Assembly (NCBI RefSeq): GCF_026151205.1 | Contig: NC_087074.1 | Span: 12,569,182 to 12,629,181 of the forward strand | Direction of reading: 5' to 3' | DNA length: 60,000 nucleotides | Origin: Bolinopsis microptera | Taxonomy: Eukaryota; Ctenophora; Tentaculata; Lobata; Bolinopsidae | Shown: piece after piece, positions 5,967-58,881 of the stretch | Layout: each line of letters begins with the position of its first letter | Position numbering within the stretch: the stretch's first letter is position 1 | The notes under the pieces: generated by a model | The model's input: the letters and a program-made list of their open reading frames with translations, nothing else | Told to the model about the DNA's origin: nothing | The model's database searches: none | Position numbers and translations under genes: made by a program

Positions 5967-8900
5967 ATGAAGCCATACCCAGTTTGGGTTGAACAAATTC
6001 AAGACAAAGATAAAGCAGATGAGCAAGATTGCATTGTTTATGGTGTTGCTGCTAAACCAGATGGTTTGTGATTTTTCATGTTCCCTTTTTTCTACAAAGA
6101 ATAATCCTGAAATTTCAGGAACAATTTTCTAACAGTTTGATAGATTATATATACTGGTCAGAGTATGCTAAGGGAACTGATATCCCTTGTGTATTGCAAA
6201 CACATTACTGTTATAGCCTTCTATAAAATATTGTCCATTACCCAGCCTTATCTTACAAATCTGTTTTCAGGGACAAAAGTAATTGCAGCAACGAGTAACT
6301 TTGTTCGGGTGTACAATGCTGTGAATGGAGAGTTTATTGCTCCTTTGAAAGGTCACAAAGATGCTGTTTATTGTGTTTGCTACAACAGAGATGGCTCTCG
6401 CTTTGCATCAGGTAAGTTAAATTGAGTCATGCTGTAATTTGCACTATTGTTGTATTGCTTAGTATGTATAATTTGGTATTGAGCCTAATGAATCAACGAC
6501 CAAGTCTGTTTATTCTAATGTTACATATTATAAATTTTAGTCGATTATTGTTATTAGACACCAAGCTGTGTTTCTTAAGTCCCATACACTAACTGTTCAG
6601 TTTAATCGGTTTGTTTTTCTAAATTATAAACATGAGTAGCAATATCCCGTTCCAATGTTTAATAATCATATTATGAAAGAATAAATTTAATTTAAAGCAG
6701 GTACTAATCTCAATATTTGAACGACTGTTTGTTACAGGAGGAGCAGATAAGACTGTTATAATCTGGACAGACGAGTTGGTGGGTATCCTCAAGTACCAGC
6801 ATAACGAGGCAATTCAATCAGTTTGCTACAACCCTGTAACCAGCCATCTCATCAGCTGTACCTCCATCGACTTTGGTATCTGGTCTCCTGAGCAGAAATC
6901 AGTAATAAAACACAAGGTTTCTAACAAGATAACCACAAGTAGTTGGACTAAGGATGGACAGTACGCTGCGCTGGGTTTCTACTCTGGTCAAATCAGCATC
7001 AGAGCACTTAAAGGAGGTGAGAACCAAATTAGCAACTCGACACTTTTAATTGTTCATAACTGCTATAATATTGTAAAGATTGTACTTTATTGACTGATAC
7101 GCTTCACCCTCTCACATTTGTTGCATAATTCTGCACTGACAATTATACCCGTTCTGTACTTAACATACATTACTGAAATTCATTTCGGCCGCTACTGTAT
7201 TGTAAATATAATATGCACAGCTTCTAGCTGCTATTAATACTATCAATGTACGATTATAAATTTTCGGAGTTTGACAACTTTATACTCTGCGTAATAAAAT
7301 CTCACTATTATTTATTTGACTGATTCATTAAACTTGATAGAAGAAATATCTCAGGTGAAGAACGTGTGAAGATAGACCGGCCCGGGGGAGCACCAATCTG
7401 GTGTATAGCTTGGAACCCTGCCAAAACAGAGGCAGTTGACATAATGGCTGTGGCTGATTGGAACCAGAAACTCTCATTCTACCAACTAAACGGCAGACAA
7501 GTTGGGAAAGACAGACATCTGGGATATGATCCAGGTTGCTTGAGATGGTATCCCGGGGGAGAGTATCTGCTAATTGGGGGGTCTAACAAAGAAGTAGGTC
7601 TCTACACCAAGGAAGGGATCTACCTCACTAAGATAGTGGATATGGGATCCTGGGCCTGGTGTGTGGATGTGTTCCCTTCACAAAACTACATCATTGCTGG
7701 CAGTCATGACGGATCTATCAAAGTGACTCAACTCAACTTTAACACTGTACACGGACTTTATAAAGACCGTTACGCCTTCAGAGAGAACATGACGGATGTT
7801 ATCATACAGAATCTCTTACAAGACCAGAAAGTGAAGATAAAGTGCAGGGATTGGGTTAAGAAAGTAGCTATCTACAAGTTCAGATTAGCAGTACAACTAC
7901 CTGATAAGATAATTGTATACGAGCTGTATTCGGATGACGTGTCCGACATGCATTATCGTGTAAAAGACAAAATCATGCAGCGTTTTGACTGTAATCTGCT
8001 TGTCGTCACCGCACATCACATCTTGCTGTGTAAAGACCACAGATTGCAAGCTTATGCTTTCAGTGGTGCTAAGGAAAGGGAGTGGGTGCTCGAAGCAAAT
8101 ATTAGGTACATCAAGGTTATCGGAGGCCCTCCTGGTAAAGAGGGATTACTGGTTGGGCTACGAAGTGGACAAGTTTTGAAAATATTCGTAGACAATCCCT
8201 TCCCAATGCTGATCATCAAGCAGCCACAATGCATTAGATGTATTGACATTAGTATGGGACGTGACAAACTCGCAATAATTGACGAAACACAGACATGCTC
8301 CGTGTACGATATCAAGACAAAGAAACTGCTCTTCCAGGAACCGAACGCGACCAGCTTGGCATGGAACACGCACAACGGTGATATGATGTGCTTCTCTAGT
8401 AACGGTTATCTGAACATTAAAGCGAGCAACTTTCCCGTCCATCAGAGAAAGATGCAGGGCTATGTAGTAGGGTTCTCAGGAAGCAAGATATTCTGCTTAC
8501 AGAACCTGACTATGCAAGCTGTGGACGTACCCCAAAGTGCTCCAATGAATCAGTATATTGAAAAGAAAATGTTCCACACTGCTTATAATGTGGCGTGTTT
8601 AGGAGTAACTAACAATGACTGGTTGAATTTAGCTAATGAAGCACTGGAGAATTTGAACCTGGAAGTGGCTAAGAATGCGTTTACAAGAGTAAGAGAGTTG
8701 CGGTATTTGGAGTTTATCTCTAATATCGAGGAGAGAAAGCAATCTAAAGCAGCTGAAACAACAAACAATCTAATTCTTGCTGACTACTATGCTTTTAAAG
8801 GCGAGTTTCAGGAGGCAGCCAAGATGTACAAGAAGTCAGGTAACGAGGACAAGGCCATGGCCATGTTCAGTGACCTGCGACAGTTTGAAAACGCCAAGGA

Positions 8901-11595
8901 TTTCCTTACCTCCTCAGATCCTAAAAACATAAAAGGGCTGATAAAGCGACAAGCAGAGTGGTGCAAATCTACCAACGATCCCGGCTCTGCTATAGACCTG
9001 TTTATGGCAGCTTCAGCGTTCACTGAAGCTATTGAAATAGCGGGCAAACAGAAATGGCCAGATAAGTTGGTGGAAATAATGAGACAGCTTGACAAGTCAT
9101 TTGTAGAGGAGCTGAGGGGTTGTGCCCTACATTTCAAGGAGCTGGGAAAATATGAGTTTGCGGCTGAGTCTTATCAGAAACTTGGGGAACTGAGTTCATT
9201 GGTGGAGTTGTACATTGAGTCTCATCAGGTAAATTTTATGACTCGGACATGGTTATAATTAACTTTCAACAATTAATCGGCACATGGATTGATAGGTCTT
9301 TTCATGTTCTTCAGATTAACTTAATGGCAACTTATTACAACCCTTTAAAGGTAACAAACTCTTCAGTGGCAAGAAGCCTTTACTTTATGTGAAGATCACC
9401 CAGAATTCAAGGAATCTGTGTACATTCCTTATGCGAACTTCTTAGCTGAAAACGATAAATTTGACGAAGCTCAGGAGGCTTACTATATAGCTGGTTTGTT
9501 GATAAATTCTTAAAACTACTTAACATTAGTTTAGGAGCTTATTTACGATATAAATTTGGGGCTATCTGATTTAATTGCTCTTTCGGTGAATTATAAATAC
9601 TATGCACATTTCAAGGCTTAGCACCGAACGTTCTGTAAATAAACAGTTTATAAAATTGTTCAGGTAAGCCCACGGAAGCGGTGAAGGTATTGGAAAAGCT
9701 AACACACAACGCTGTTGCGGAAAGGAGATTCGATGATGCTTCTTATTACTTTTGGAAACTGTCCATGGCGTATCTAAAGCTGGCGAACCAGGCACAAACC
9801 AGAGGTACACGTTAGTTTTATACTCCGTATTATATTTTATTGGATTCTTTTGTTTTCTATTGCAATGCACAACACATCACGCACAACGACCGAATGGTGC
9901 GAACATAGATCAGTATCTCAGGCAGTGTAGATGTTAATAAATACTTGAATGTGCGATGGAGTAAATGTAATATGGCATGGACGAAGGGAAAGGGTACTTA
10001 TACTGGGATTAGCGACGTGCTTCATGGTAATCTCACAGTAAAGCATCGTTTTGGTTTATCTAGGAATTCTCGGAGCCTTATCTTTTGCTTTAGTTGAACT
10101 AGCCGACTGTTTTATTTGTATTGTGGTTTCCGTTCTGCAGTCGAGCTCTGTCTAGAAAACAGGACCAGCAAATTGTAATACACAGTTACAGCTCGATCTT
10201 TGTTGAGCACTTTTGCTTCAAATGCACATCTTACTACTGGTTAAAGTCACGTGCACTGTCTAGATTACAAATGTTTGCGACGGGAAGAGCGCGAGAGCTT
10301 TACTTGTGAACCTTAAAAGTCACAATCAAGTATTGAAGTCTGGTGTTGTTAACTAATTATTGGCCTAATTAACCTATATTACCAGGAAGCGAAGAAGAAG
10401 TAAACCAGTATTTGGACAAGTTCCAAGATTACCAGCACCGTGCAGAGATGTACTACGTGTACCAGACCCTACACCGGTACACCGAGGAGCCCTTCACGTC
10501 ACACCTTCCTGAGGCACTGTTTAACATGGCACGCTTTCTACTTCATAACTTGTCACAGGAAATTCCTTACGGTAATTAGTAATTACATCTTGTGGTTTCA
10601 TTTATCGATTTGCTCTTTTTTGAAACACTGACTATTGACGTTCAAGCTTGTAAGCTTGTTAATTAAACTGCTGCACTGTATCTTATTTTAACATGAGTAC
10701 TGAGTAATCTCACGACGTATAACTTTCAGGAGTGTCCAAAGTGTCGATACTGTATGCTCTAGCGAAACAGAGTAAGAACATGGGTGCATACAAGATGGCT
10801 CGCCATGCGTTTGACAAACTACAACAGCTGGTCATACCACGCAGATTCCAGCAAGCGATTGACCTGAGCAGTATCACAATTCGATCCAAACCTTTTCAGG
10901 TTAGAATTATTTTTTTTTTCACCGCAGAGTTTGTCAGTTTCAAATTTGTTGGTTTGATCTTTTTAGTGTGAAAAATTCTCAATAAACCTTTCATTCCTCA
11001 GGACAAAGAGGAGTTGCTACCAATGTGTTCCAAGTGTTCTACAACTAACCCACTTCTAAACCAAATGGGAAACCAATGCATCAACTGTCAACAACCATTC
11101 GTACACTCATTTTACGCTTTTGAAGTTTTGCCCCTTGTCGAGTTCATCCCTGAAAATGGTATCAGTGATTTGGAAGCGGTAAAACTGATCAATCAAGATC
11201 CCCCGACAAGTGGTGGCAAGGGATGGCAGGAATCAAATCAAGGAGATGTTCAGACAATGTCATTCGAGAATCCTAATGCGTCGCGATACGAGGAAGGTGA
11301 TACTTTTGAGACGAGATTACAGAATTGGGAATCTATGACGTCATACCAACCAGTGGAAGTTGGTCCGGAAATATTGAAGAAGATGCCGAGATCAGAAGTT
11401 GTTGTTCTGAAGTGGGGCTCGCCACTGAGATATCAGTTTTATAAGAACTTAATGCCTGATATCATTTTGGATACCTGTGACAGTTGTAACCGTATCTTCT
11501 ATGCTGATGATTTGGAGTTACAATATCTCCAAAAGCAAGCATGTCCATTTTGTAGGAAGAGTGTTGCTCAGCCTGAAGCAGCTGTAGCTGAATAA
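5967..11595 (+). CDS. IFT122: Intraflagellar transport protein 122 homologue (IFT-A subunit)
   Basis: WD-repeat/TPR-like subunit of the IFT-A complex, which carries out retrograde transport and membrane-protein entry in cilia. Nine exons join in frame: 5967-6063, 6271-6411, 6738-7016, 7355-9228, 9367-9493, 9664-9804, 10386-10571, 10730-10899, 11002-11595, all GT-AG, 3,609 nt, about 1,202 codons, the usual length. The first third is WD repeats ([44 protein letters not shown]). The middle and end are helical TPR-like ([40 protein letters not shown]). Two C-terminal zinc-binding pairs are present: CSKC...CINC near residue 1010 and CDSC...CPFC near the end. The start [10 protein letters not shown] leads into [12 protein letters not shown], the expected first WD blade. 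The 1,874-nt exon 4 is unusually long for this gene. An AATAAA overlaps the stop codon. No damage was seen. Identity is very likely; only exon 1 is less certain. Confidence 0.95.
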
Positions 11596-29889: not shown

Positions 29890-30649
29890 CGTACTGTAGT
29901 GCGACACGTACTCTAGTGCGACACGTACTAGAGAATGCAAGGGGAATTCTTAGCTCCAGCCGTCAGGATAAAGTCCGTGGATAGTCACCAACTGCGTGAT
30001 CAAGTTAGGCGAGGTGCTGAAGGTACCATTGATGACAAGATGAGCTAAACGACCCATGTTTTCTACAGTGCCGAACAGGAAAGATCTTCTTCCCTCTGCT
30101 GAGTAGGCAGAATCCCAAAGAAGGAAGGTTTCGCCATTGTTCGTTCTGATGTAGTCATCAGACATGTTGATGTTGTTCGATGCTTTGGTAGAATCATCGT
30201 GACCTTATATATGGCCCAAGCATATGAACTTGTTATCCCAATCGGATATATACCTTCATACGATGCGTGTGATAGGAATGAGGATCATATGCTGCTTACG
30301 AGTTACCCAGTGGATCACACAATGCATACGTGGCTTGAACTGACCCGAAGGAATTATGATAGTGGATCACTTCGAAACACGTGATGTGAACCGACGAATC
30401 GTATTCGCAAGATCACTTCGAAATAAGTGACGTGAACCGACCCGACGAATCACTTATATTAATGGTCCATAAGAAGGATAGGATGTGACCTGAACTTGGA
30501 AATAAGTTAGGATATTTTGTCGCACTAGAGTACGCTACCTGGATCGTAGTGCGACACGTACTGTAGTGCGACAAAGGGTGTTTTTGTCGGACTTCGCACT
30601 AGAGTACGTGTCGCACTAGAGTACGTGTCGCACTACAGTCTACAGTACG
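29890..30649 (-). mobile_element. MULE-like DNA transposon remnant, copy A
   Basis: The left end, 29890-29928, is a 39-base sequence made of 17-base units (TAGTGCGACACGTACTC). Its exact reverse complement forms the right end of copy C (42248-42286), and copy A has the same right end with a 7-base insertion (up to 30649). On the minus strand 30165-29950 encodes 71 residues resembling the start of a Mutator-like (MULE) transposase: NGETFLLWDSAYSAEGRRSF, LFGTVEN, then LVINGTFSTSPNLITQLVTI. The first catalytic Asp (VDGTF in the family) is Asn here. A second internal palindrome of TTTGTCGCAC...GTGCGACAAA lies at 30519-30578. Inactive. Confidence 0.75.
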
Positions 30650-30774
30650 ATTACCGGTGTTGAACTTTATCTTACAACACCGTCCACCGTCCTTTAAACC
30701 CGCTTCTGAACTGATAAGAGAATTGTACTTTTATAATTGAAACATAATAACTTATTGGTCATAATTACACTCAA

Positions 30775-31218
30775 TCAACTTAATAACACCAGAATGTGTG
30801 TGTGTCTGTGTGTCTGTGTGTCTGTGTGTAATTTCCGAACAGTTATACAAAAAAAACGGTAATAGTTACGGGACTGGTTTTTTCGGTATAGTGCCGACAA
30901 AACTCTGATGAAGCCCATAAGAAAATTTTATAAAAATCGGCCGGTGGTATGTGGTTTAATTGATGATTTTGTTCCAGAAATGTGACATAAATGGATGGGA
31001 GAGAGAACGAGGAGGATAACATGTACCGTAATTAGTTTAGCCCCACGTAATATCAGAGCTCACTCTTGCGGCCGCTTTGTTTTAACTGTAGGGTGATTTC
31101 ATACTTTCATAAGACAGCATTATGCGTGATATCAAATATATAATGCGGTTGCCGGTTGTATACTTTTACATTGCAACTGTGACAGTAAATTCCCGGCCGA
31201 AGGCACGGGTTACACTAG
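30775..31218 (+). mobile_element. Non-autonomous Helitron, 444-bp copy with empty site in the window
   Basis: Starts TCAACTTAATAACACCAG and ends TTACACTAG. Without it, the flanks ...TTACACTCAA and TATAGATATA... join exactly as in the uninterrupted paralogous segment at 40871-40888. Insertion is therefore between A and T with no duplication, which fits rolling-circle Helitron integration. The 3' hairpin (CCCGGCCGAAGGCACGGG) has one extra base in one arm compared with the copy at 29056-29748. Confidence 0.92.
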
Positions 31219-31795
31219 TATAGATATATAATCAATAATGTGATTGTGTATAATAGTTACAGGGTTTCAAAAGTCTGGCGAGGATGTTCTTGTTGGATAA
31301 CTTTTAATCTTTTTGTCTAAACTTTATTCTGTAAAATGTTATTGGTAGTTCTAAGGTTTAATGTCAATCATGGTCCACTGGAAGCCTTTGCTGCCGCCTA
31401 CTAGCTTTTTTTTGTTGGGGACCGGCCCGAAGTACCAGCCAATGTTTACTCAAAAAATAATATATATAATAAGTGTTATCAATTCAAACTCAAAACTCAT
31501 ACAAGATTAGATCTCATTAAAACGATTAAAATGTATATAATATAGCTTTTCGAAACAAAACATAGCTGAGCACATATAAAGTTGTTTTTAGTTGAAATTA
31601 TCATATTAATATTTAATATGCTTTTAGAGTTGTTAGAGTGGAAACAGGCGCATAGCTACTGCTAGCTAGCTATTCCAAAATTTTAAAAATTTAACGACTG
31701 TTATCAGTCGCATAGCGTCATGCCGTTTTTGCTGGCGAATTGATGGCAGTGTAACTGAGATGGTATGCAGTGAAATTGATTCTGTGATGGCTTGC

Positions 31796-34700
31796 TTATG
31801 GGACAGAGTTATTATTAGCATTACGGTTGATGTTGCGCTCTGATTTCCTTAGTCCCGTTATATTGTATAACATAAAGTTAGGCCATTCGTCTGCAATGCC
31901 CTCGTTTTGTTGATCAATGAGCATGTTTTTTATGCACCTTTTGTAGATGTTAAGGTTGAATAGACTTGGCAAGGAAGTTGCTGCGACACTATATCTGTTT
32001 ATTGCTAATAGTGGACCTTTGTAGAATACTGAATTATTGTAAGGGTGTTTACCGTATTCATCTGACCATAAAGTTGTAAGACTCGAATCCGGATCGGCGA
32101 CGTTAAATATTGGTGCACTGTTAGGTATTGTTTTCTTTATAGAGGGAGGCACTAGACTTGGGAAGTTTTTTAGCTTATGTATAAAAACTAATGCGTTCTT
32201 CACGATGATACTTTGAACTGTCAATATTTTGTGTACATAGAAACCAGACTTGGTACTTGCTGGTGGTGTACCATCTTTGTACCAGTAATTAACAAAACCT
32301 GGTAGTATTGCTCTAAGACCCATTTTCTGTTTAACAAATAGTGTTTCTATATGGGATTTGGCAGCAAAACCCCAGACGAGGGAGCAGTAATTAAGGTGAG
32401 ACTGCACAAAGCTGTGACATATTTGTAAACGTGCTTCCAGAGGCAAATATTTTTTAAGTTTGTACATGACTCCAATGTATCTGGCCATTTTCATTTTCAT
32501 GGCAGAAATATGTTGCGACCAGTTCAGTTTGTTATCTATTATAACACCTAAGAAACGGGCTTCTGTTTTTCTTTCGATTGTGACACCAGAAATTACTACA
32601 TCGCGATAAATGAGGTTTCTTTGTCGAGAAAAGATCATATAATTCGTTTTTTTAAGATTTAGAGCTAATCCGTTGTTATCTACCCATTTAACTAAGACAT
32701 CGCTAAGAATTTTGAGCTTATCATAAACCTCGTTTATATTTTCTCCTGTTAGGAAAATGTTTGCATCATCTGCGTACATGATGAAATTAGCTATTTCTGA
32801 TATTTGAGGAAGATCGTTTATGTAGATTATAAAAAGGAGAGGTCCCAAAATTGAACCTTGGGGTACACCGTAAATAATTGGATTGGCTGAGGATTCAGAG
32901 GATCCAATTGATACAAACTGGTTTCTGTTCATAAGATATGATTTAAACCAGTTTAAAGCTAGACCTCTTATGCCATAGTGCTCGAGCTTATTCAGGAGTA
33001 TGGAGTGATCCACAAGGTCAAAGGCTTTGCTAAAGTCAATCAAGAGGAGCAAAGTAACTTGCTTTTTAGACATTGAATTGAGGATTCTGTCTTTAGCATT
33101 AAGAAGTGCATGTTCACAAGACCTACCTGGGCGGAAGCCGTATTGATTTTCACAAAGTATATTGTAGGTATCCAAGAAATTTATGACTCGATTGTGCATA
33201 AGCTTTTCGTAGACTTTTGAGAAAGTGGCAAGTAGAGATATCGGTCTGTAATTTTTGATGTCAGTTTTAGATCCACCTTTATGTACAGGAACTACTTTTG
33301 CCGTTTTCAAGGCTTGGGGAAAGACCCCTTGTTCGAACGAGCTGTTAACAACGTGGGCCAATACAGTGGTAAAATTATGACAGCTGTTGGCAATTTTGAG
33401 TGGTTGGATTTTGGTGTCAAGAGTAGCTTTATTCTTAAATATGTTAATAACGTCTTGAACTTCGGTAGTTGTGACTGGTTTTATGTAGATACTATTTGGA
33501 GAAGGGTTACGTAGTGTCCCCTGGGCCCCACCAGGATCGAAAGTGGTCCTACTACTAATTTCAGATTTAATTTTTGGAGCGATGTTTGAGAAGTGATCAT
33601 TAAATTTTTCTGCTACTGCTGCCGGAGTGCTGACTTGTCCGTTTTCGTCCGACAGTTTTATCGATGTAGGTTTGGCTGGTTTCCTATTCAGAAGTCCGTT
33701 AATCATCTGCCACTGCTTCTTAGAATTATCTTTGTGTTGTTCAAAGAATTTTTTGTAGTGTATGTTTTTGGCTTTGTCAACGTGTTTGGTGCAAAACTTT
33801 TTCAAACGGTCATATTTTAGCTGGTTCCTATCAACTGGTTCCTTAACAAAATCATGATATGCCTGATTTTTACGTTCTATAGCTTCTTCAAGCCAGGGCA
33901 GTATCCATGGTTTGGGATTAACACGTTCATTTTGTCTGCGCTCGGACTGTCTTTTTGTCGGGTAGGCAGCGTTATAAATCCTGTTGTAAGCCGAATTTAA
34001 ACAATCAAACTGCTGGTTAGCATCAGGGGTATTTGTTAGTATTACAGACCAATTTTCTTCCATTATTAAATCTCTAAATTTATGGTTGTTGGCCTCATTA
34101 AAACTACGTACGTTGGTTTGTGTTGGATTTTGATTATAAGATGCGGAGCGGTAACTGCTGGTGGATGTATTATCAAGATTAATTGTTGTAACTATCGCTA
34201 AGTGATCCGACAGATCTGTCGTTAATACGTTGCAGCTTATTGTATCTTCAAGATTGTTCGTGTAGATATGATCAATAAGCGTGGCACTGTGGTCTGTTAT
34301 GCGAGTTGGACGTGATACAATTTGGATGAAACCGTAAGAGGATGCAATATCAATAATGCTTTGACATGCCTGGTTGCTACTGTGCTTCAGTAAATTTAGA
34401 TTAAAATCTCCATGTAACGTCATATGTTTGCGAGAGTGTCTTCCCAGGTTGTGAAGCGTACTTTTAAAAATTTCAAGAAATGCTTCAGGTTTTCTAGCGG
34501 GAGAGCGATAAACATTTCCAATTATCTTTGTTCTATTATATCCTTTACACTGGTGGATCTTGATAAATTGAAATTCGCCGCTAGTATTTGAGGGTTCAGG
34601 GTTGGGATTGAAAATATCAATTTTATCAGAGTCAGCTACACGTTTGTGTATGTATATGGCAAGCCCCCCACCTTTACCCGATGTGCGGATGGGATCTTGG

Positions 34701-35281
34701 ATATACGGTTCATGGAATCCATTTAATGTGATGTCGTTTATTCCGTTAGGCAATTTTTCTAGTGTGCAGTTAGTTTCGTTAAAACACAATACATCATACT
34801 TATCATATATTTCTATATCTTCTCGTAGTTGATCAATATTTTTGAAAAGGGATCTGATATTCATGGAAAATGTTTTAAGTTGAGAGGATGTCGACCTTTT
34901 TACGTTACGTTGCTGTTTATACTGACAGTGAGTTAGGAAAGCCGAAATGTCACTCCATGTTGAATCCTGGTGCTCTTCATTGGTCATGGCGTCTCCAATA
35001 AGATGACATCGACTATTTTGAGCGTATGGATTATAAATAGCGCAATTAAGCTTATTGTAGTCATCGTAAATTTCATAGTAAGTCGCGTAAAATCCAGGAA
35101 TAAGACTTTCACAACAGCTTGTACAACCTAAATTTTCCTTAAAACATTTGACGTGGACGTTGTTTTGGCACCATGAACAGCTGCGGATGTTTTTGGAAGA
35201 ATAACACCAGCCGCTACAGCTACCACATTTTATTTTGATTTTATGACCAGAAGTATCAGTAACATTTCCATTCGCTGCCAT
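31796..35281 (-). CDS. Retrotransposon ORF2: Cys-rich finger, endonuclease and reverse transcriptase
   Basis: Intact 1,161-residue polyprotein that nicks target DNA and copies the element RNA. Residues 19-57 form a PHD/ZZ-like finger (pairs C19/C22, C35/C38, H43/C46, C53/C56). The APE-type endonuclease follows, from about residue 137 ([11 protein letters not shown]) through HGDFNLNLL (about 289) to [10 protein letters not shown] (about 357). A linker ([25 protein letters not shown]) leads to the reverse transcriptase: [54 protein letters not shown] and [11 protein letters not shown], with the catalytic YADD near residue 835. Then come [15 protein letters not shown] and [10 protein letters not shown] of the C-terminal tail. 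No stop or frameshift interrupts it, so the copy is young. It lies 740 bases downstream of ORF1 on the same strand. Confidence 0.95.
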   Translation of the reverse strand: [1161 protein letters not shown]

Positions 35282-36021
35282 TTTAAGTTAACTCTTATGC
35301 TTGTGGAGGAATTAGAGAATAAAAAATGTATAAATTTATAAATAACGTAAAATATATCTATACTAGTGCAAATCAGATTCTTTCACGAGAACCGGAGGTC
35401 CTGTATGCTACAGAATCGTGATCTGAGTCTTATCTACTTATTTGTTAAAAATATTCGCTAAATCAAATGTTACAATATAGTGCCCTTATCTCGATTTTCG
35501 GGCTTATCAGTATGATAATATGACTTTACCTAAAGTGTATATTAAGTCGTTGTGATTTGTATGTGTGAAATTGTTTCGTTGTGTAGTTTTGTGTGGTGAT
35601 TTTTGCTATTTAGTTGTTTGTGAAGTTTTCGAAAATACTGTTGCACTGAACTTTGACTGAGGAAACGTGCTTGATGCTGATTCACCAGAGAAGCTTCTAT
35701 AATTATTAAATAAAATGTGCACAGTTTTGTTTGGTAATGTGAAAATGTTTTAGGAAATGTATGGTGGGATGATAAGAGACAAAAATGCTTGATAGTGAAA
35801 GAATGTTCATCAGTTCATCTGATAAGCTTAAGAAGATAAGCATTTTCGACCAATCAGATCATTTCTTCAAAAATCGATCGTGGTAGCAATCAAATGATGA
35901 ATTTGGATGAGGAGTGAGGATGTACTGAAAAAGATATGAAAATACTTGATGATATGCTTAATTTAAGGGCTTGACAGAAAAGGTTGATTTTTATATAATT
36001 AATTCATTTATGGATTAGTGC
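35282..36021 (-). other. Inter-ORF region of the retrotransposon
   Basis: About 740 bases between the end of ORF1 and the ORF2 start. It is AT-rich and has no coding signature on either strand. That is long for the gap between two retrotransposon ORFs, which more often overlap or nearly touch; ORF2 translation would need reinitiation, internal entry or a separate RNA (inference). Confidence 0.6.
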
Positions 36022-36351
36022 TCAACCACGGTGATATCTGAAAGGACTGTTAGGCTCATGGTGGTAGAGCCACGCACAGTTCCTGTGGCGTGGCAGTTCT
36101 GATCCACATAACTTGCCAACGCAGTTGACAAGTTCATATGCAACAGCCCTTCTGACATCGTGATGTAAATGGATGCCATGCTTATCATTGCGGTCCCATA
36201 CGTAGTATGAGTGAACCCGCTTGATAACGGCATGGGCATCGTAAAATGTCAGATTGGGTATCACCCTGGCGAGATTCACCATACATAGATTAAAATCATC
36301 AATTTCTCTGTTCAACCAACCAATTCTCGTTAAAGACAAAGCACAAAACAA
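36022..36351 (-). pseudogene. C-terminal part of the ORF1 SGNH esterase, in the -1 frame
   Basis: Continues the SGNH domain after a -1 shift within 36330-36351, where the sequence is TTTTGTTTTGTGCTTTG-like on the minus strand. It contains TRIGWLNREIDDFN (the LN...I..FN helix typical of retroelement esterases) and DKHGIHLHHDVRR, the position of block V. The usual catalytic D-x-x-H reads H-G-I-H here, so the Asp seems replaced by His. Whether the shift is a one-base deletion in this copy or programmed frameshifting cannot be told from one copy; deletion is the simpler view. Confidence 0.7.
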
Positions 36352-37814
36352 AACTGTGTGCTTTTGTTGCTCTTACAGCTTTCGACAAGGCGGGGACAAA
36401 AGTTATCAGCCAGACTCTTGGCAGATTTTCCATACCGTGAAAGATCGTTTATGCCACATGAGATGATCACAGTTTTGGCATGTTTGAGATCATGATCCAA
36501 AGAGTCTATGAGCTGGTAGTTCAAACGCTTCTGACAGCGGTGGCCGGGTATCTGATCGAACAACCATTCAGGTGTTTCACGATGAATAGAGTCATGTATG
36601 AATAGGACTTTGGAGTGACGAGACTGAGAGGAGGAGTTCTGAGCTGGAGGGGCAACAGGTGGTATCCGATGGAGAGCTGGAGGTGCAGGCACAGTGCATG
36701 ACTCTTGTTGTTTCAGTTTGCGGAAAGTCAGTGAAATGCGTGGAAACCTTACCGAGATATCGCGGTCAATGCCGTGGCGCCAGTTGTCCTGATCTGCTCG
36801 TGACATGACGTAAAGTGAACCGTGCTCAAGTGGAATGTTATGCTCGACAAAGGGGCCTACTGTACTTGATATCCTAAGGTTTCTAGGTGCTCCAATCGAC
36901 ACTGTATAAATTTGACTATCCTCCATTATGCTAGGTTCGCTGTCATTATGCATCGGTATGCCGACCGATCCGTCCTTGTATAAAGTGCAAAGGCAAGTGT
37001 AGTTCTCTGGGGTTATGTCAGCGTCCAGTTTTTGCAGTTGCTCGTACGCATGTTCCAGAGTGGGTGGAAGTGGCCCAACAGAGACAGGATGTGAGGTTCT
37101 GCCGTACGTGTAGGGGACGGAGCCATAATAAGTTGTGATACGGCCTCCAGGGTGGTGCATGTCAAAGTTTAGCTCACTTGAAACTTTATCAAAAGTTAAC
37201 TCGGAAAGATCGCACTCTAAAAGTCTTACCGGCGAATGAGGCATACTTGTAACTTCTCTGGAAGTGTCGAGGTTCTGCAAGGGGGCTTCAGAGATGAGAG
37301 TTGCAGTCTGCTGTGTGATGAGGGTGGTCTGTTTCTTCGTTTCATCAGAGACTTCTTCGATCGCCGTCAGAGCACGTTCTGTTAGATGTTTCACCGCCTT
37401 CTCGCACTCCCCATTAACAGTACATGAAAGTAAGTTAGCTGCCGCAGTTAGACTATTCATGGATTGATCTATATCAACGACTATTTGACGTGTTAGATAT
37501 TGTTTGATGGCGGCTTGTTTGGTGTCAGGCTTAGTGGCTTTGCCAGTAAATGCGGGGTCAATTAAACGGAGCCTGTTGTATTCAAAATCTATATCTTCTT
37601 TGGAGAGGGTAGGTAAAACGTTTAAACACGTCTTAGCGCAAAACGTGTAAATTGATGGCACACCAAAGCCCAACATACCGAGGGAGGGTGCCTCCGTGTC
37701 GAAGGGTGACCCGGAGGCAGCAGGTTTAGTGATACTGTTCTTCCTAGCAGGAGTCTTCTTAGCAGCAGGAGTCTTGTTAGCAGCAGAGGTCGACTTGTTA
37801 AGATGGCCGGACAT
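36330..37814 (-). CDS. Retrotransposon ORF1: AlkB-like dioxygenase fused to SGNH/GDSL esterase
   Basis: 494 residues up to the frameshift. Residues 1-40 are a Lys/Ala/Pro-rich basic tail (AANKTPAAKKTPARKN), suited to nucleic-acid binding. About residues 225-366 match the AlkB family of Fe(II)/2-oxoglutarate dioxygenases: TTYYGSVPYTYGRTSHPVSV (substrate lid), NYTCLCTLYKDG, iron ligands His289 and Asp291 (GIPMHNDSEP), VSIGAPRNLRI, HGSLYVMSRADQDNWRHGID with the third ligand His347, and PRISLTFRK with Arg359 and Arg365 at the AlkB R-x5-R spacing. All catalytic positions are present. From residue 402 an SGNH hydrolase begins: KVLFIHDSIHRE (block I, Ser409, with His in place of the usual Gly) and IISCGINDLS (block III G-x-N-D). 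The rest of that domain lies in the -1 frame at 36351-36022. AlkB enzymes repair alkylated or demethylate RNA/DNA; a role in protecting or unmarking the element RNA is inference. Confidence 0.85.
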   Translation of the reverse strand: MSGHLNKSTSAANKTPAAKKTPARKNSITKPAASGSPFDTEAPSLGMLGFGVPSIYTFCAKTCLNVLPTLSKEDIDFEYNRLRLIDPAFTGKATKPDTKQAAIKQYLTRQIVVDIDQSMNSLTAAANLLSCTVNGECEKAVKHLTERALTAIEEVSDETKKQTTLITQQTATLISEAPLQNLDTSREVTSMPHSPVRLLECDLSELTFDKVSSELNFDMHHPGGRITTYYGSVPYTYGRTSHPVSVGPLPPTLEHAYEQLQKLDADITPENYTCLCTLYKDGSVGIPMHNDSEPSIMEDSQIYTVSIGAPRNLRISSTVGPFVEHNIPLEHGSLYVMSRADQDNWRHGIDRDISVRFPRISLTFRKLKQQESCTVPAPPALHRIPPVAPPAQNSSSQSRHSKVLFIHDSIHRETPEWLFDQIPGHRCQKRLNYQLIDSLDHDLKHAKTVIISCGINDLSRYGKSAKSLADNFCPRLVESCKSNKSTQFCFVLCL

Positions 37815-37919
37815 GATAAAATCAAGCAGTTTCTTATCAGCAAGTCAGTGCACTTGTGAAAAGATTAGAGAGCAAAAATGTTGATGCGTAATGTAAAGTA
37901 AAAATGATTGAAAATGAAA

Positions 37920-38262
37920 AGCTGAACTATTTTGTCAACCCGCAAACCTGGATAGAGTTGGCCGATATCAAAGCTTCATAAAAATTGGAGGTGGAATGTT
38001 ATAAAATTATAGTACCCTGATTTACCTGTGCAGTACTCATGTCTCATAATAGCCAAGGTAATAATATTATGGTATTAGTATTGCATCAGTCATGAATTAA
38101 AGAATCGATAACATGGTTCTATTCTTTTTCGAGGTTTAATCATTAATCCGAATGATCGTAAATTGTAACTAACCAGCTTTAGCTCGGTGAAATTCTCGCA
38201 TAATGTTTACCCCAATAGGTTCTTTTGCGATAGTGTAAACGCGACAACTAGCGCTGGATGGT
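37920..38262. repeat. Host repeat segment, right flank of the retrotransposon
   Basis: Nearly identical to 41069-41401. Together with 31219-31406 (same as 40879-41072) it forms one continuous segment at the paralogous site, so in this copy it was split by the 6.5-kb insertion. Confidence 0.9.
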
Positions 38263-39885: not shown

Positions 39886-40754
39886 ATATTTGACTTTCCA
39901 TTTTAAAGTTTTAATGACACAGCGTTTATCAGGGCTCTCCCGTAGTCACTCATGACAGATTAAAGGTCGACTCCAAATGCAAGGAGCTCATCCAAGAGGG
40001 CTTCATAAATATGATAAGCCTGTGTCTTTCCGGGGAGTAAGCCGAATGCAAGGGGAATTCTCAGCTCCAGCCGTCAGGATAAAGTCCGTGGATAGTCACC
40101 AACTGCGTGATCAAGTTAGGCGAGGTGCTGAAGGTACCATTGATGACAAGATGAGCTAAACGACCCATGTTTTCTACAGTGCCGAACAGGAAAGATCTTC
40201 TTCCCTCTGCTGAGTAGGCAGAATCCCAAAGAAGGAAGGTTTCGCCATTGTTCGTTCTGATGTAGTCATCAGACATGTTGTTCGATGCTTTGGTATAATC
40301 ATCGTGACCTTATATATGGCCCAAGCATATGAACTTGTTATCCCAATCGGATATATACCTTCATACGATGCGTGTGATAGAAATGAGGATCATATGCTGC
40401 TTACGAGTTACCCAGTGGATCACACAATGCATAAGTGGCTTGAACTGACCCGAAGGAATTATGATAGTGGATCACTTCGAAACACGTGATGTGAACCGAC
40501 GAATCGTATTCGCAAGATCACTTCGAAATAAGTGACGTGAACCGACCCGACGAATCACTTATATTAATGGTCCATAAGAAGGATAGGATGTGACCTGAAC
40601 TTGGAAATAAGTCAGGATATTTTGTCGCACTAGAGTACGCTACCTGGATCGTAGTGCAACACGTACTGTAGTGCGACAAATGGTGTTTTTGTCGGTCTTC
40701 GCATTAGAGTACGTGTCGCACTAGAGTACGTGTCGCACTACAGTCTACAGTACG
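39886..40754 (-). pseudogene. MULE transposase remnant, copy B
   Basis: Same element as copy A but with 160 more bases at the 3' end of the minus-strand coding part. After LVINGTFSTSPNLITQLVTI and a TGA stop at 40061-40063, a second frame continues the MULE_transposase domain: FGLLPGKTQAYHIYEALLDE, then a stop, then VMSDYGRALINAV, which holds the second catalytic Asp (SDY). At least one frameshift and two stops make it inactive. The right side ends in the GTGCGACACGTAC-type terminal array at 40625-40754. Confidence 0.75.
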
Positions 40755-40878
40755 ATTTCCGGTGTTGAACTTTATGATTATCTTACAACACCGTCCTTTA
40801 AACCCGCTTCTGAACTGATAAGAGAATTGTACTTTTATAATTGAAACATAATAACTTATTGGTCATAATTACACTCAA

Positions 40879-41401
40879 TATAGATATATAATCAATAATG
40901 TGATTGTGTATAATAGTTACAGGGTTTCAAAAGTCTGGCGAGGATGTTCTTGTTGAATAACTTTTAATCTTTTTGTCTAAACTTTATTCTGTAAAATGTT
41001 ATTGGTAGTTCTAAGGTTTAATGTCAATCATGGTCCACTGGAAGCCTTTGCTGCCGCCTACTACTACTAGCTGAACTATTTTGTCAACCCGCAAACCTGG
41101 ATAGAGTTGGCCGATATCAAAGCTTCATAAAAATTGGAGGTGGAATGTTATAAAATTATAGTACCCTGATTTACCTGTGCAGTACTCATGTCTCATAATA
41201 GCCAAGGTAATAATATTATGGTATTAGTATTACATCAGTCATGAATTAAAGAATCGATAACATGGTTCTATTCTTTTTCGAGGTTTAATCATTAATCCGA
41301 ATGATCGTAAATTGTAACTAACCAGCTTTAGCTCGGTGAAATTCTCGCATAATGTTTACCCCAATAGGTTCTTTTGCGATAGTGTAAACAACTAGCGCTG
41401 G
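40879..41401. repeat. Uninterrupted paralogous segment (natural empty site)
   Basis: This segment equals 31219-31406 joined to 37920-38262. It marks the pre-insertion state for the Helitron at 30775 (junction 40878/40879) and the non-LTR element at 31407 (AGCT at 41069-41072). It carries two extra CTA units just before the AGCT. Confidence 0.92.
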
Positions 41402-42286
41402 ATATTTGACTTTCCATTTTAAAGTTTTAATGACACAGCGTTTATCAGGGCTCTCTCGTAGTCACTCATGACAGATTAAAGGTCGACTCCAAATGCAAGG
41501 AGCTCATCCAAGAGGGCTTCATAAATATGATAAGCCTGTGTCTTTCCGGGGAGTAAGCCGAATGCAAGGGGAATTCTCAGCTCCAGCCGTCAGGATAAAG
41601 TCCGTGGATAGTCACCAACTGCGTGATCAAGTTAGGCGAGGTGCTGAAGGTACCATTGATGACAAGATGAGCTAAACGACCCATGTTTTCTACAGTGCCG
41701 AACAGGAAAGATCTTCTTCCCTCTGCTGAGTAGGCAGAATCCCAAAGAAGGAAGGTTTCGCCATTGTTCGTTCTGATGTAGTCATCAGACATGTTGATGT
41801 TGTTCGATGCTTTGGTAGAATCATCGTGACCTTATATATGGCCCAAGCATATGAACTTGTTATCCCAATCGGATATATACCTTCATACGATGCGTGTGAT
41901 AGGAATGAGGATCATATGCTGCTTACGAGTTACCCAGTGGATCACACAATGCATACGTGGCTTGAACTGACCCGAAGGAATTATGATAGTGGATCACTTC
42001 GAAACACGTGATGTGAACCGACGAATCGTATTCGCAAGATCACTTCGAAATAAGTGACGTGAACCGACCCGACGAATCACTTATATTAATGGTCCATAAG
42101 AAGGATAGGATGTGACCTGAACTTGGAAATGAGTTAGGATATTTTGTCGCACTAGAGTACGCTACCTGGATCGTAGTGCGACACGTACTGTAGTGCGACA
42201 AAGGGTGTTTTTGTCGGACTTCGCACTAGAGTACGTGTCGCACTAGAGTACGTGTCGCACTAGAGTACGTGTCGCACTACAGTACG
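41402..42286 (-). pseudogene. MULE transposase remnant, copy C
   Basis: As copy B, same frames and stops (minus-strand 71-residue part at 41792-41577). The right terminal array has one more 17-base unit and ends at 42286 with a perfect complement to the left end of copy A; unique DNA (AAGCCCCCCATGG) follows shortly after. Confidence 0.75.
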
Positions 42287-42473
42287 ATTACCAAGCCCCC
42301 CATGGTAGGTTCTAAGTCAGAGATAGTTTATCAGACCCTGAAGTTGTACTATAACTATAAACAACTTTAGACAGTTTTTGGGTTTTTCCAAATAGTTTCT
42401 GATTATTCTGATTTGCGACAAATGATATTGCACTGTTAGGATAAACGACGTTTCAAAGTAACAACTTCTTATT

Positions 42474-56941: not shown

Positions 56942-57110
56942 ATTATTTATAGATAATGTACTATATTTTTTCAATCAGTATATATACAATAAAGTAATTC
57001 AAGTGTTGCAATTGGCAGAGCACAATACAGAGGTAACGGAAACTGTCCACTGCTACCAATATTATATAATATGAAATATCAACAATCAGATATATAATAT
57101 TTTATTATTA

Positions 57111-58881
57111 TTGCTCAATAAAGAAAAAGTTAGTACTACTACACCTTCTTGCTCTTCGAATCTTGAGAGTGCTAACAACTTTGCACAGTTCTTTAAATCA
57201 AAGGTCGACAACATATACAACAACATTTATTTAGAACAACAATCCCAAGATTCTCCTAACTCAGATGAATTTGTTCCTCTTTCTAATAGCCCAAAGATAG
57301 TACAATTCCGTCATGTGTCTGATGAAGAACTAGTAAGCATCATAAAGAATATGTCTAACAAATTCTGTGATCTTGACCCCATACCTACAAAGATTCTCAT
57401 CAAGTGTCTCCCAGAACTCCTTCCTCTGATCTCATTTATAGTCAATGAATCATTAGTTAAAGGTGAGTTTCCTATAAAACTTAAGGAGGCTCTCATTCGT
57501 CCAAGTTTGAAGAAACGTGGCCTTGACGGTGAATCTCTATCTAACTATAGGCCTATTAGCAATCTCTCATTCTTGTCAAAAATCATTGAGAAGTGTGTAT
57601 CTATACAGCTCACCAGTTATCTTGAGGATAACAACTTGCTTTCTAAAGTTCAGTCCGGCTATAGGAAGTTTCATAGCTGTGAAACTGCAACAACCAGAAT
57701 CCATAACGACATCTTGATAACTATTGACAAGAAAACTAAAGTTGTTCTTTTACTTCTAGATTTGAGTGCTGCCTTTGATACTGTCAATCACCCAAGATTA
57801 ATCAAGAAGCTAAGATCTGCTTATGGCATTACAGGCATTGCTCTTACATGGATCAGGTCCTACTTGGCTAACCGTTCATTTTGTGTCAAAGTCAAGGATT
57901 CGTCTTCCTCAGCAACTGTTCTTGAGATAGGTGTGCCACAAGGTTCAATCCTTGGCCCCCTGCTATTCATATTGTACACCAAAGATCTTGAGAACATTGC
58001 AAGTATGCATGGGTGCTGTATTCATTTGTATGCTGATGACACCCAGCTGTATTTCACTCTTGATTCTGATGACCCATCACAGCTAGAGCACAATATGGAA
58101 CACTGTATGTCTGATATCAAGAAATGGATGACAAACAATTTCCTTCAACTGAATTCTTCTAAGACTGAAGTCATCGTTATATCCTCTAAATTTGACTACA
58201 AATATTCCAGCCTCTCTACAGATTGTTAAGGATCAAGAGCCACATGTTGTTAGTGGAACTGTGAAGAGTCTTGGGCTGTATTTGGACAGTTATCTTTCAA
58301 TGAGTGATCAGATTACGTCAGTGGTTCAAGCATGTAATATTCAGATCAGAAATTTGTGGTTTATTGCATCAAAACTGTCTTTTAACCTTAAGATTCAGCT
58401 TGTTCATGCTCTAGTACTCTCTAGAATTGATTATTGCAATAGCGTATATTTTGGACTGAGCTCTTATGATTTAAGTCGTTTACAGAAGGTGCAAAATTCT
58501 GCTGTAAGATTTATTTTCGGGAGAGGAAGAAAGGCACACACTACTCCACTACTTAAGAAAGTTCATTTTCTACCAGTTAGATTTAGAATAGATTTTAAGA
58601 TTGCCCTACTTGCCTACAAGTGTTTAAATAATATAGCTCCTCCTTACTTAAAAGAGTTGATATCTCCTAGGCAGCAAAGTTTTAAAAATGTACGTCTTGA
58701 TAATGATTATTTTTACCTTAGTTTTCCGCCCTCTCCTAACTATGTAAACACAGAGAAAGCTTTTAGTCACTGTGCAGTTAAAGTATTTAATTCCTTGCCA
58801 TACGACATAAGATCAGCTGAGTCAGTTACATCTTTCAAGACCAAACTTAAAACATACTTCTTTTCTCTAGCATTTGATTGA
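57111..58881 (+). pseudogene. Non-LTR retrotransposon reverse transcriptase, 5'-truncated and frameshifted
   Basis: Two frames overlapping at 58192-58229. The first (372 codons, to 58229) carries the finger and palm: ALIRPSLKKRGLDGESLSNY, RPISNLSFLSKIIEK, LLLDLSAAFDTVNH, IGVPQGSILGPLLFILYTKD and IHLYADDTQLY (catalytic YADD). The second (to 58881) holds VKSLGLYLDSYLSM, LVLSRIDYCNSVYFG and LQKVQNSAVRFIFGRGRK. The frameshift lies near 58190, between KTEVIVISSKF and the next motif. The endonuclease is missing. CR1/Rex-like. The 3' end runs to a TATTATTATTTATTATTA tail near 59040-59075. Confidence 0.9.

Follow-up and report, generated by a model that had tools for sequence, protein, structure and literature searches.

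AlkB-like domain joined to an SGNH domain in the ORF1 protein of a ctenophore non-LTR retrotransposon

The proteins encoded by the first open reading frame (ORF1) of non-long terminal repeat (non-LTR) retrotransposons are poorly understood compared with most other components of common transposons. One of the closest described counterparts of the element reported here is ZfL2-1, whose type IV (esterase) CR1/L2 ORF1 combines a coiled coil with an SGNH domain upstream of an ORF2 carrying endonuclease (EN) and reverse transcriptase (RT); the accessible text of the two papers concerned mentions neither AlkB nor dioxygenase (PMC3905857; PMC4120745). A retrotransposon-encoded AlkB is described for a Ty3/gypsy (Tat/Ogre) element of the orchid Phalaenopsis, where demethylation of N6-methyladenosine (m6A) was obtained in vitro (PMC9289625). 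In the full-text literature covered, AlkB in a transposon was found for this orchid element only; Repbase, preprints and most subscription papers lie outside that scope, so that a record may exist. Here we analyse a window of 60,000 nucleotides from the ctenophore Bolinopsis microptera (NC_087074.1, positions 12,569,182 to 12,629,181), which contains a non-LTR retrotransposon. As the initial annotation of this DNA had proposed, its ORF1 joins an AlkB-like domain to an SGNH domain; the fusion lies inside the mobile unit and the catalytic residues of its AlkB are conserved across the family.

The ORF1 features are given below. P0001 is an intact relative (597 aa, 89% identical to the window protein) whose AlphaFold2 model was used.

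36330..37844, (-): ORF1 main frame, with disordered N-terminus, coiled coil, AlkB and first part of SGNH (ATG at 37814)
36022..36372, (-): last ~109 residues of ORF1 in another frame, the rest of SGNH including block V
37296..37529, (-): long helix, probably a coiled coil, P0001 residues 96-173 (AlphaFold2 model of P0001)
36705..37244, (-): AlkB domain with H289, D291, H347, R359 and R365 (model residues 191-370 of P0001)
36025..36620, (-): SGNH hydrolase domain, over the two frames

Pfam PF13532 (2OG-FeII_Oxy_2) matches the window ORF1 at 36720-37118 with an E-value of 1.6e-17 and a score of 64.8 bits (cut-off 31.2), and the P0001 model has a predicted AlkB-like fold; both checks had been suggested beforehand. 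When residues are numbered from the ATG at 37814, HNDS stands at 289 and RISLTFR ends at R365, and the residue set put forward initially (His289-x-Asp291, His347, Arg359 and Arg365 in RISLTFR) is found at these positions as invariant columns of a 34-row family alignment. All five cofactor residues are kept in 66 of the 66 rows covering them, with aligned rows reaching down to ~20% identity to P0001. The predicted double-stranded beta-helix is accompanied by HxD...H and two arginines for 2-oxoglutarate. By profile and predicted fold the nearest relatives appear to be ALKBH2 and ALKBH3, not ALKBH5, FTO or ALKBH1, and the acid of HxDxE, common to ALKBH2/3, is present; the profile matches include 8hb2 (E 2.5e-6), whose title is DNA N6-methyl adenine demethylase. 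The domain looks intact and may be an ALKBH2/3-type enzyme.

The two SGNH motifs named initially, block I (HDSI, at 407) and block III (GIND, at 454), are likewise present. No GDSL family is detected by Pfam at E <= 1 in the window copy by itself; PF13472 is matched at E <= 0.1 by 28 of the 34 family rows, and a search with the family profile finds GDSL enzymes of solved structure (E 5e-6). The block I Ser and the block III Gly and Asn are invariant over 32 rows, and the His occurs in 29 of 31 covering rows. We find a predicted SGNH fold with blocks I and III and the block V His; in predicted structure, coiled coil plus SGNH correspond to a type IV (esterase) ORF1, to which the AlkB is additional.

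The region 36022..37814 had been taken for one ORF1 frame, which is incorrect: ORF1 occupies two frames, 36330-37844 (504 codons, stop to stop) and 36022-36372, with a break at ~36350. Residues 1-490 of P0001 align to the first frame and 489-597 to the second, and a single-base gap at ~36350 is the sole frame-breaking difference from five sister copies. The window ORF1 is broken inside the SGNH domain, whereas the family has intact ORF1 copies (see below). Two, perhaps three, of the copies at window 36350, G000:C1:25305881-25307643 and G000:C5:4077188-4077547 seem to have a break near the same residue (472-496), which may reflect a shared broken lineage or, less likely, programmed frameshifting.

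The complete element has the following features.

31407..37919, (-): whole non-LTR retrotransposon insertion, ~6.5 kb, with flanks matching an empty site
31403..31406: target-site duplication AGCT, 3' side, adjoining a run of 8 A (element strand)
37920..37923: target-site duplication AGCT, 5' side
40869..41403, (+): paralogous site lacking the insertion (empty site)
31796..35287, (-): ORF2, with cysteine-rich N-terminus, endonuclease and reverse transcriptase (frame open; 95% identical to P0034)
34202..34861, (-): Exo_endo_phos endonuclease domain of ORF2 (Pfam E 7e-6)
32537..33268, (-): RVT_1 reverse transcriptase domain of ORF2 (Pfam E 5.6e-38)

The ends at 31407 and 37919 were set by self-comparison of the window, because both flanks match one continuous stretch (40869-41403): 31210-31403 corresponds to 40869-41063 and 37920-38259 to 41069-41403, both at 98%. 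Two CTA units separate the filled from the empty site, and owing to this (CTA)n difference the placement of the AGCT duplication is uncertain by a few bases. Along the element a 5' leader of ~105 bp is followed by ORF1, a spacer of ~735 bp, ORF2 (EN, RT) and the 8-A run at the 3' end. An ORF2 with EN and RT, a short target-site duplication, a 3' tail and 5' truncation in some copies characterize a non-LTR retrotransposon, which by its cysteine-rich/EN/RT layout looks CR1/L2-like. Mnemiopsis leidyi (52%) is the sole organism named among the best 120 of 636 ORF2 relatives. Going by its synonymous divergence (dS) of 0.006 from the copy L033, the window insertion is a recent one.

Copies were searched in the host assembly (264.65 Mb, 232 contigs). 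The ORF1 search, with 73 of 824 candidates scored, yielded at least ten full-length copies, 90-91% identical to P0001, which lie on seven contigs and span residue 1 to 596/597; eight of these ten are without a stop and two have one TAG. For ORF2 (42 matches listed, 40 of 7,176 candidates scored) 40 copies were compared, 29 of which reach codon 10 or earlier. An ORF1 match lies upstream on the same strand in 22 of the 29; the distance is 751-796 bp for members of the 95% subfamily and 642-659 bp for those of the 85% one. As for the upstream DNA of the other seven, two have a truncated ORF1 end, and in five the element sequence ends inside the ORF1-ORF2 spacer, with no element-strand frame above 101 aa in up to 1.8 kb of DNA read upstream, as 5' truncation would leave them. 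Copies lacking the AlkB-bearing ORF1 had been named as a possible refutation, but a different ORF1 was seen in none of these 29 ORF2 copies. Among the matches listed, an ORF2 match lies behind at least 14 of 20 full-length ORF1 copies. Two family members, P0005 and P0159, are deposited as proteins of Planctomycetes metagenome-assembled genomes, probably through eukaryotic contamination.

Because the window copy is frameshifted, one might suspect that assembly or annotation has created the fusion, or that an element inserted by chance next to an ALKBH gene of the host. This is contradicted by the empty site, by the ten full-length ORF1 copies on seven contigs, by the near-constant ORF1-ORF2 spacing and by the host genes, which are separate loci: ALKBH2 (L032, E 4e-60), ALKBH3 (L029, 2.5e-39) and an ALKBH3-like gene (L030, 1.6e-27). 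We consider its probability negligible.

AlkB is also present in other elements of this genome. A family search (587 candidates, 150 scored) gave at least 151 matches, and 23 long loci, a non-random choice covering varied frame lengths and scores, were read: 15 are non-LTR, 5 Helitron-type and 3 host. An RT frame follows downstream on the same strand in 14 of the 15 non-LTR loci; in the fifteenth (L018) the next frame matches an ORF2 start (141 residues, 96% identity), and another element probably interrupts it. GDSL matches in the ORF1s are weak (below the Pfam cut-off), and GDSL is absent at E 0.05 in L013, L015 and L028, where GVND or GIND motifs are kept. PHD-like fingers in the ORF1 of L020, L025, L026 and L028 are also weak, below Pfam cut-offs, with best E-values of 3e-4 to 3e-3. 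No RRM or CCHC Pfam match was obtained in the 14 ORF1s scanned (the window at E 1; the other 13, including L015, L024 and L031, at E 0.05). Among the Helitron-type loci, L009 and L011 carry SGNH, AlkB, DUF6570, Helitron_like_N and PIF1 in this order within a single frame, Helitron_like_N and PIF1 helicase being joined as in Helitrons. L012 shows SGNH, AlkB, DUF6570 and Helitron_like_N in a frame cut by the end of the stretch. In L010, SGNH-AlkB and PIF1 occupy separate frames (no Helitron_like_N in the two frames scanned), and L016 has SGNH and AlkB frames only, its assignment being made by AlkB. Other AlkB fusions were observed in P0171 and P0173, where isochorismatase (PF00857) is joined to AlkB; one of them is named from the fungus Diplocarpon rosae.

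In a tree of 46 AlkB domains (support given as paired values) four sets form single groups: A, which is the window family (91/94), C (97/94), D (100/100) and the Helitrons (100/99); B does not. The host ALKBH2 pairs with its human counterpart (100/98), and the host ALKBH3 likewise (94/93). One side of the tree holds A, B, C and the Helitrons (86/86), and D falls with cellular ALKBH2/3 (89/74). The test did not reject one common origin of the AlkBs carried by elements (p 0.316). The RTs of the AlkB-bearing elements form at least five well separated groups with long branches.

The best explanation overall, which we give slightly less than an even chance, is an ORF1 protein (ORF1p) with the domain order disordered N-terminus, long coiled-coil helix, AlkB, SGNH, in which the AlkB would dealkylate the single-stranded RNA template and the cDNA. 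The coiled coil would multimerise ORF1p on the element RNA, and the SGNH domain, possibly with no hydrolysis involved, would anchor the particle on lipid or membrane, a role that has been proposed for the ZfL2-1 esterase. The ALKBH2/3-type Fe(II)/2-oxoglutarate AlkB would strip methyl groups (1-methyladenosine, m1A, 3-methylcytidine, m3C, or similar) off this template and off the newly made cDNA, where, left in place, they would halt reverse transcriptase; Helitrons, passing through single-stranded DNA, would use AlkB likewise. ALKBH3 prefers single strands, and Helitrons are not known to have an RNA genome or to move through RNA. The Helitron loci carry the most weight here: a purely RNA-mark explanation would therefore not cover both element classes, whereas single-strand protection or erasure of a DNA mark would cover non-LTR elements and Helitrons. 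m1A and m3C are described as single-strand lesions (PMC11431407).

The initial annotation had thought of alkyl or methyl marks on the element's own RNA or cDNA, reversed in a putative self-encoded epitranscriptomic defence. Of this idea the m6A version seems less probable than the repair of alkyl lesions on single strands, because the nearest relatives appear to be ALKBH2/3 (m1A/m3C) and not ALKBH5/FTO (m6A), because AlkB also occurs in Helitrons, which are not known to move through RNA, and because ALKBH5 suppresses human L1 retrotransposition (PMC7873242). The latter finding and the ALKBH2/3 affinity (rather than ALKBH5, FTO or ALKBH1) also weigh against counter-silencing, in which the AlkB of ORF1p would erase a mark set by the host, either m6A on the RNA of the element or N6-methyladenine (6mA) on the element's DNA, and the element so escape decay or silencing, with the PHD finger guiding AlkB to chromatin in PHD-bearing relatives. 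Even though the Ty3/gypsy-encoded AlkB removes m6A in vitro (PMC9289625), 8hb2 is among the profile matches, four ORF1s have weak PHD-like fingers and a mark on DNA would cover the Helitrons too, we regard counter-silencing as rather unlikely.

A wider version of the dealkylation reading is that AlkB, usually with SGNH, is a shared 'strand cleaner' module which unrelated mobile elements of one animal lineage (Helitrons and five or more RT lineages of non-LTR type) gained or swapped since both travel as single strands, and which would dealkylate the RNA, cDNA or single-stranded DNA intermediate. We consider this possible but less likely than not; if true, the module would be a transposon-borne nucleic-acid repair system.

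Several observations weigh against dealkylation of single strands. The substrate is suggested by the fold and a few residues, and AlkB folds also take m6A and proteins; and the AlkB tree puts the window family outside host and human ALKBH2/3. In the SGNH domain the triad Asp (position 546, three residues ahead of the His) is mostly lost (N 24, H 5, Q 1 and D 2 of 32 rows; H in P0001, nearest to the window), which makes hydrolysis doubtful. Some SGNH enzymes function as a dyad. Lipid or membrane binding, as reported for the ZfL2-1 esterase (PMC3905857), may still apply, since hydrolysis is not needed for binding. Recent change in AlkB is a further point. For L033-L035, L033-L037 and L035-L037, the ratio of nonsynonymous to synonymous change (dN/dS) is 0.17, 0.27 and 0.18 over the whole ORF1 (0.17-0.39 for all pairs across these lineages) and 0.11, 0.09 and 0.09 in SGNH; AlkB gives 0.59, 0.89 and 0.41 on 12-15 changes, and Fisher tests of AlkB against the rest of ORF1 give 0.010, 0.038 and 0.17 in overlapping, non-independent comparisons. 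The closest copies (dS <= 0.012) are little informative, with ratios of 0.15-1.41 on few changes. Against the 62% subfamily (L024) the AlkB ratio is 0.06-0.10, with dS saturated. Constraint on AlkB is thus clear in the long term but not for recent change: it may now be weaker, because the AlkB of young copies outpaces the rest of ORF1 in protein change, and the few changes in L033, L035 and L037 would fit relaxed or diversifying selection.

This faster change is also what one might expect if the catalysis of AlkB were dispensable and the domain served ORF1p as a structural or nucleic-acid binding module, in place of the RRM or zinc knuckles found in other types of ORF1. Given the lack of RRM and CCHC matches in the 14 ORF1s scanned, RNA may be bound by another part of the protein, and the lost Asp of SGNH shows that remnants of enzymes can persist. 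Such modules, however, usually lose their cofactor residues, which are here complete in every covering row at identities down to ~20%, and we find this explanation improbable. Slimmer still is the chance that AlkB acts on protein (of the host, or ORF1p/ORF2p) like some AlkB homologues: the superfamily has protein-acting members, but the ALKBH2/3 affinity and the HxDxE acid point elsewhere.

That the AlkB of ORF1 retains its catalytic residues in divergent lineages and is found again next to a Helitron helicase suggests that transposition is limited by chemical modification of, or damage to, single-stranded intermediates. This can be tested with one enzyme and one active-site mutant.

Elsewhere in the window a second non-LTR RT of another lineage, broken, lies at 57075-58881. 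Repeats at 29933-30775, 39886-40760 and 41402-42292 are mutually 97-98% identical, and their frames resemble a MULE-type transposase fragment. The long frame at 7324-9258 we take to be a host gene resembling IFT122 (WD repeats).

Compared with known systems, the Phalaenopsis AlkB belongs to a plant LTR element, where it is ALKBH5-like and forms a separate ORF after the polyprotein, whereas here it is ALKBH2/3-like, SGNH-fused and part of a non-LTR ORF1 in an animal (PMC9289625). In ZfL2-1 the catalytic SGNH residues are D279/H282, the Asp being mostly lost here, and our AlkB lies between coiled coil and SGNH (PMC3905857; PMC4120745). PHD-containing CR1/L2 ORF1s (type III and variants) share the finger seen weakly in L020, L025, L026 and L028, where AlkB and SGNH motifs come after it (PMC4120745). 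Bdelloid LTR and Athena elements likewise have enzyme ORFs common to unrelated retroelements of one host; these are GDSL esterase and DEDDy exonuclease, with no AlkB or Helitron in the accessible text (PMC5408684). Texim of fish Helitrons is a Helitron-associated SGNH hydrolase related to CR1 proteins; its abstract mentions no AlkB (PMC4021074), whereas here SGNH and AlkB share one frame with Helitron helicase domains. Finally, human ALKBH3 and ALKBH2 resemble the element AlkB in fold (predicted here), cofactor residues and HxDxE acid, but they are cellular repair genes, of which the host has its own.
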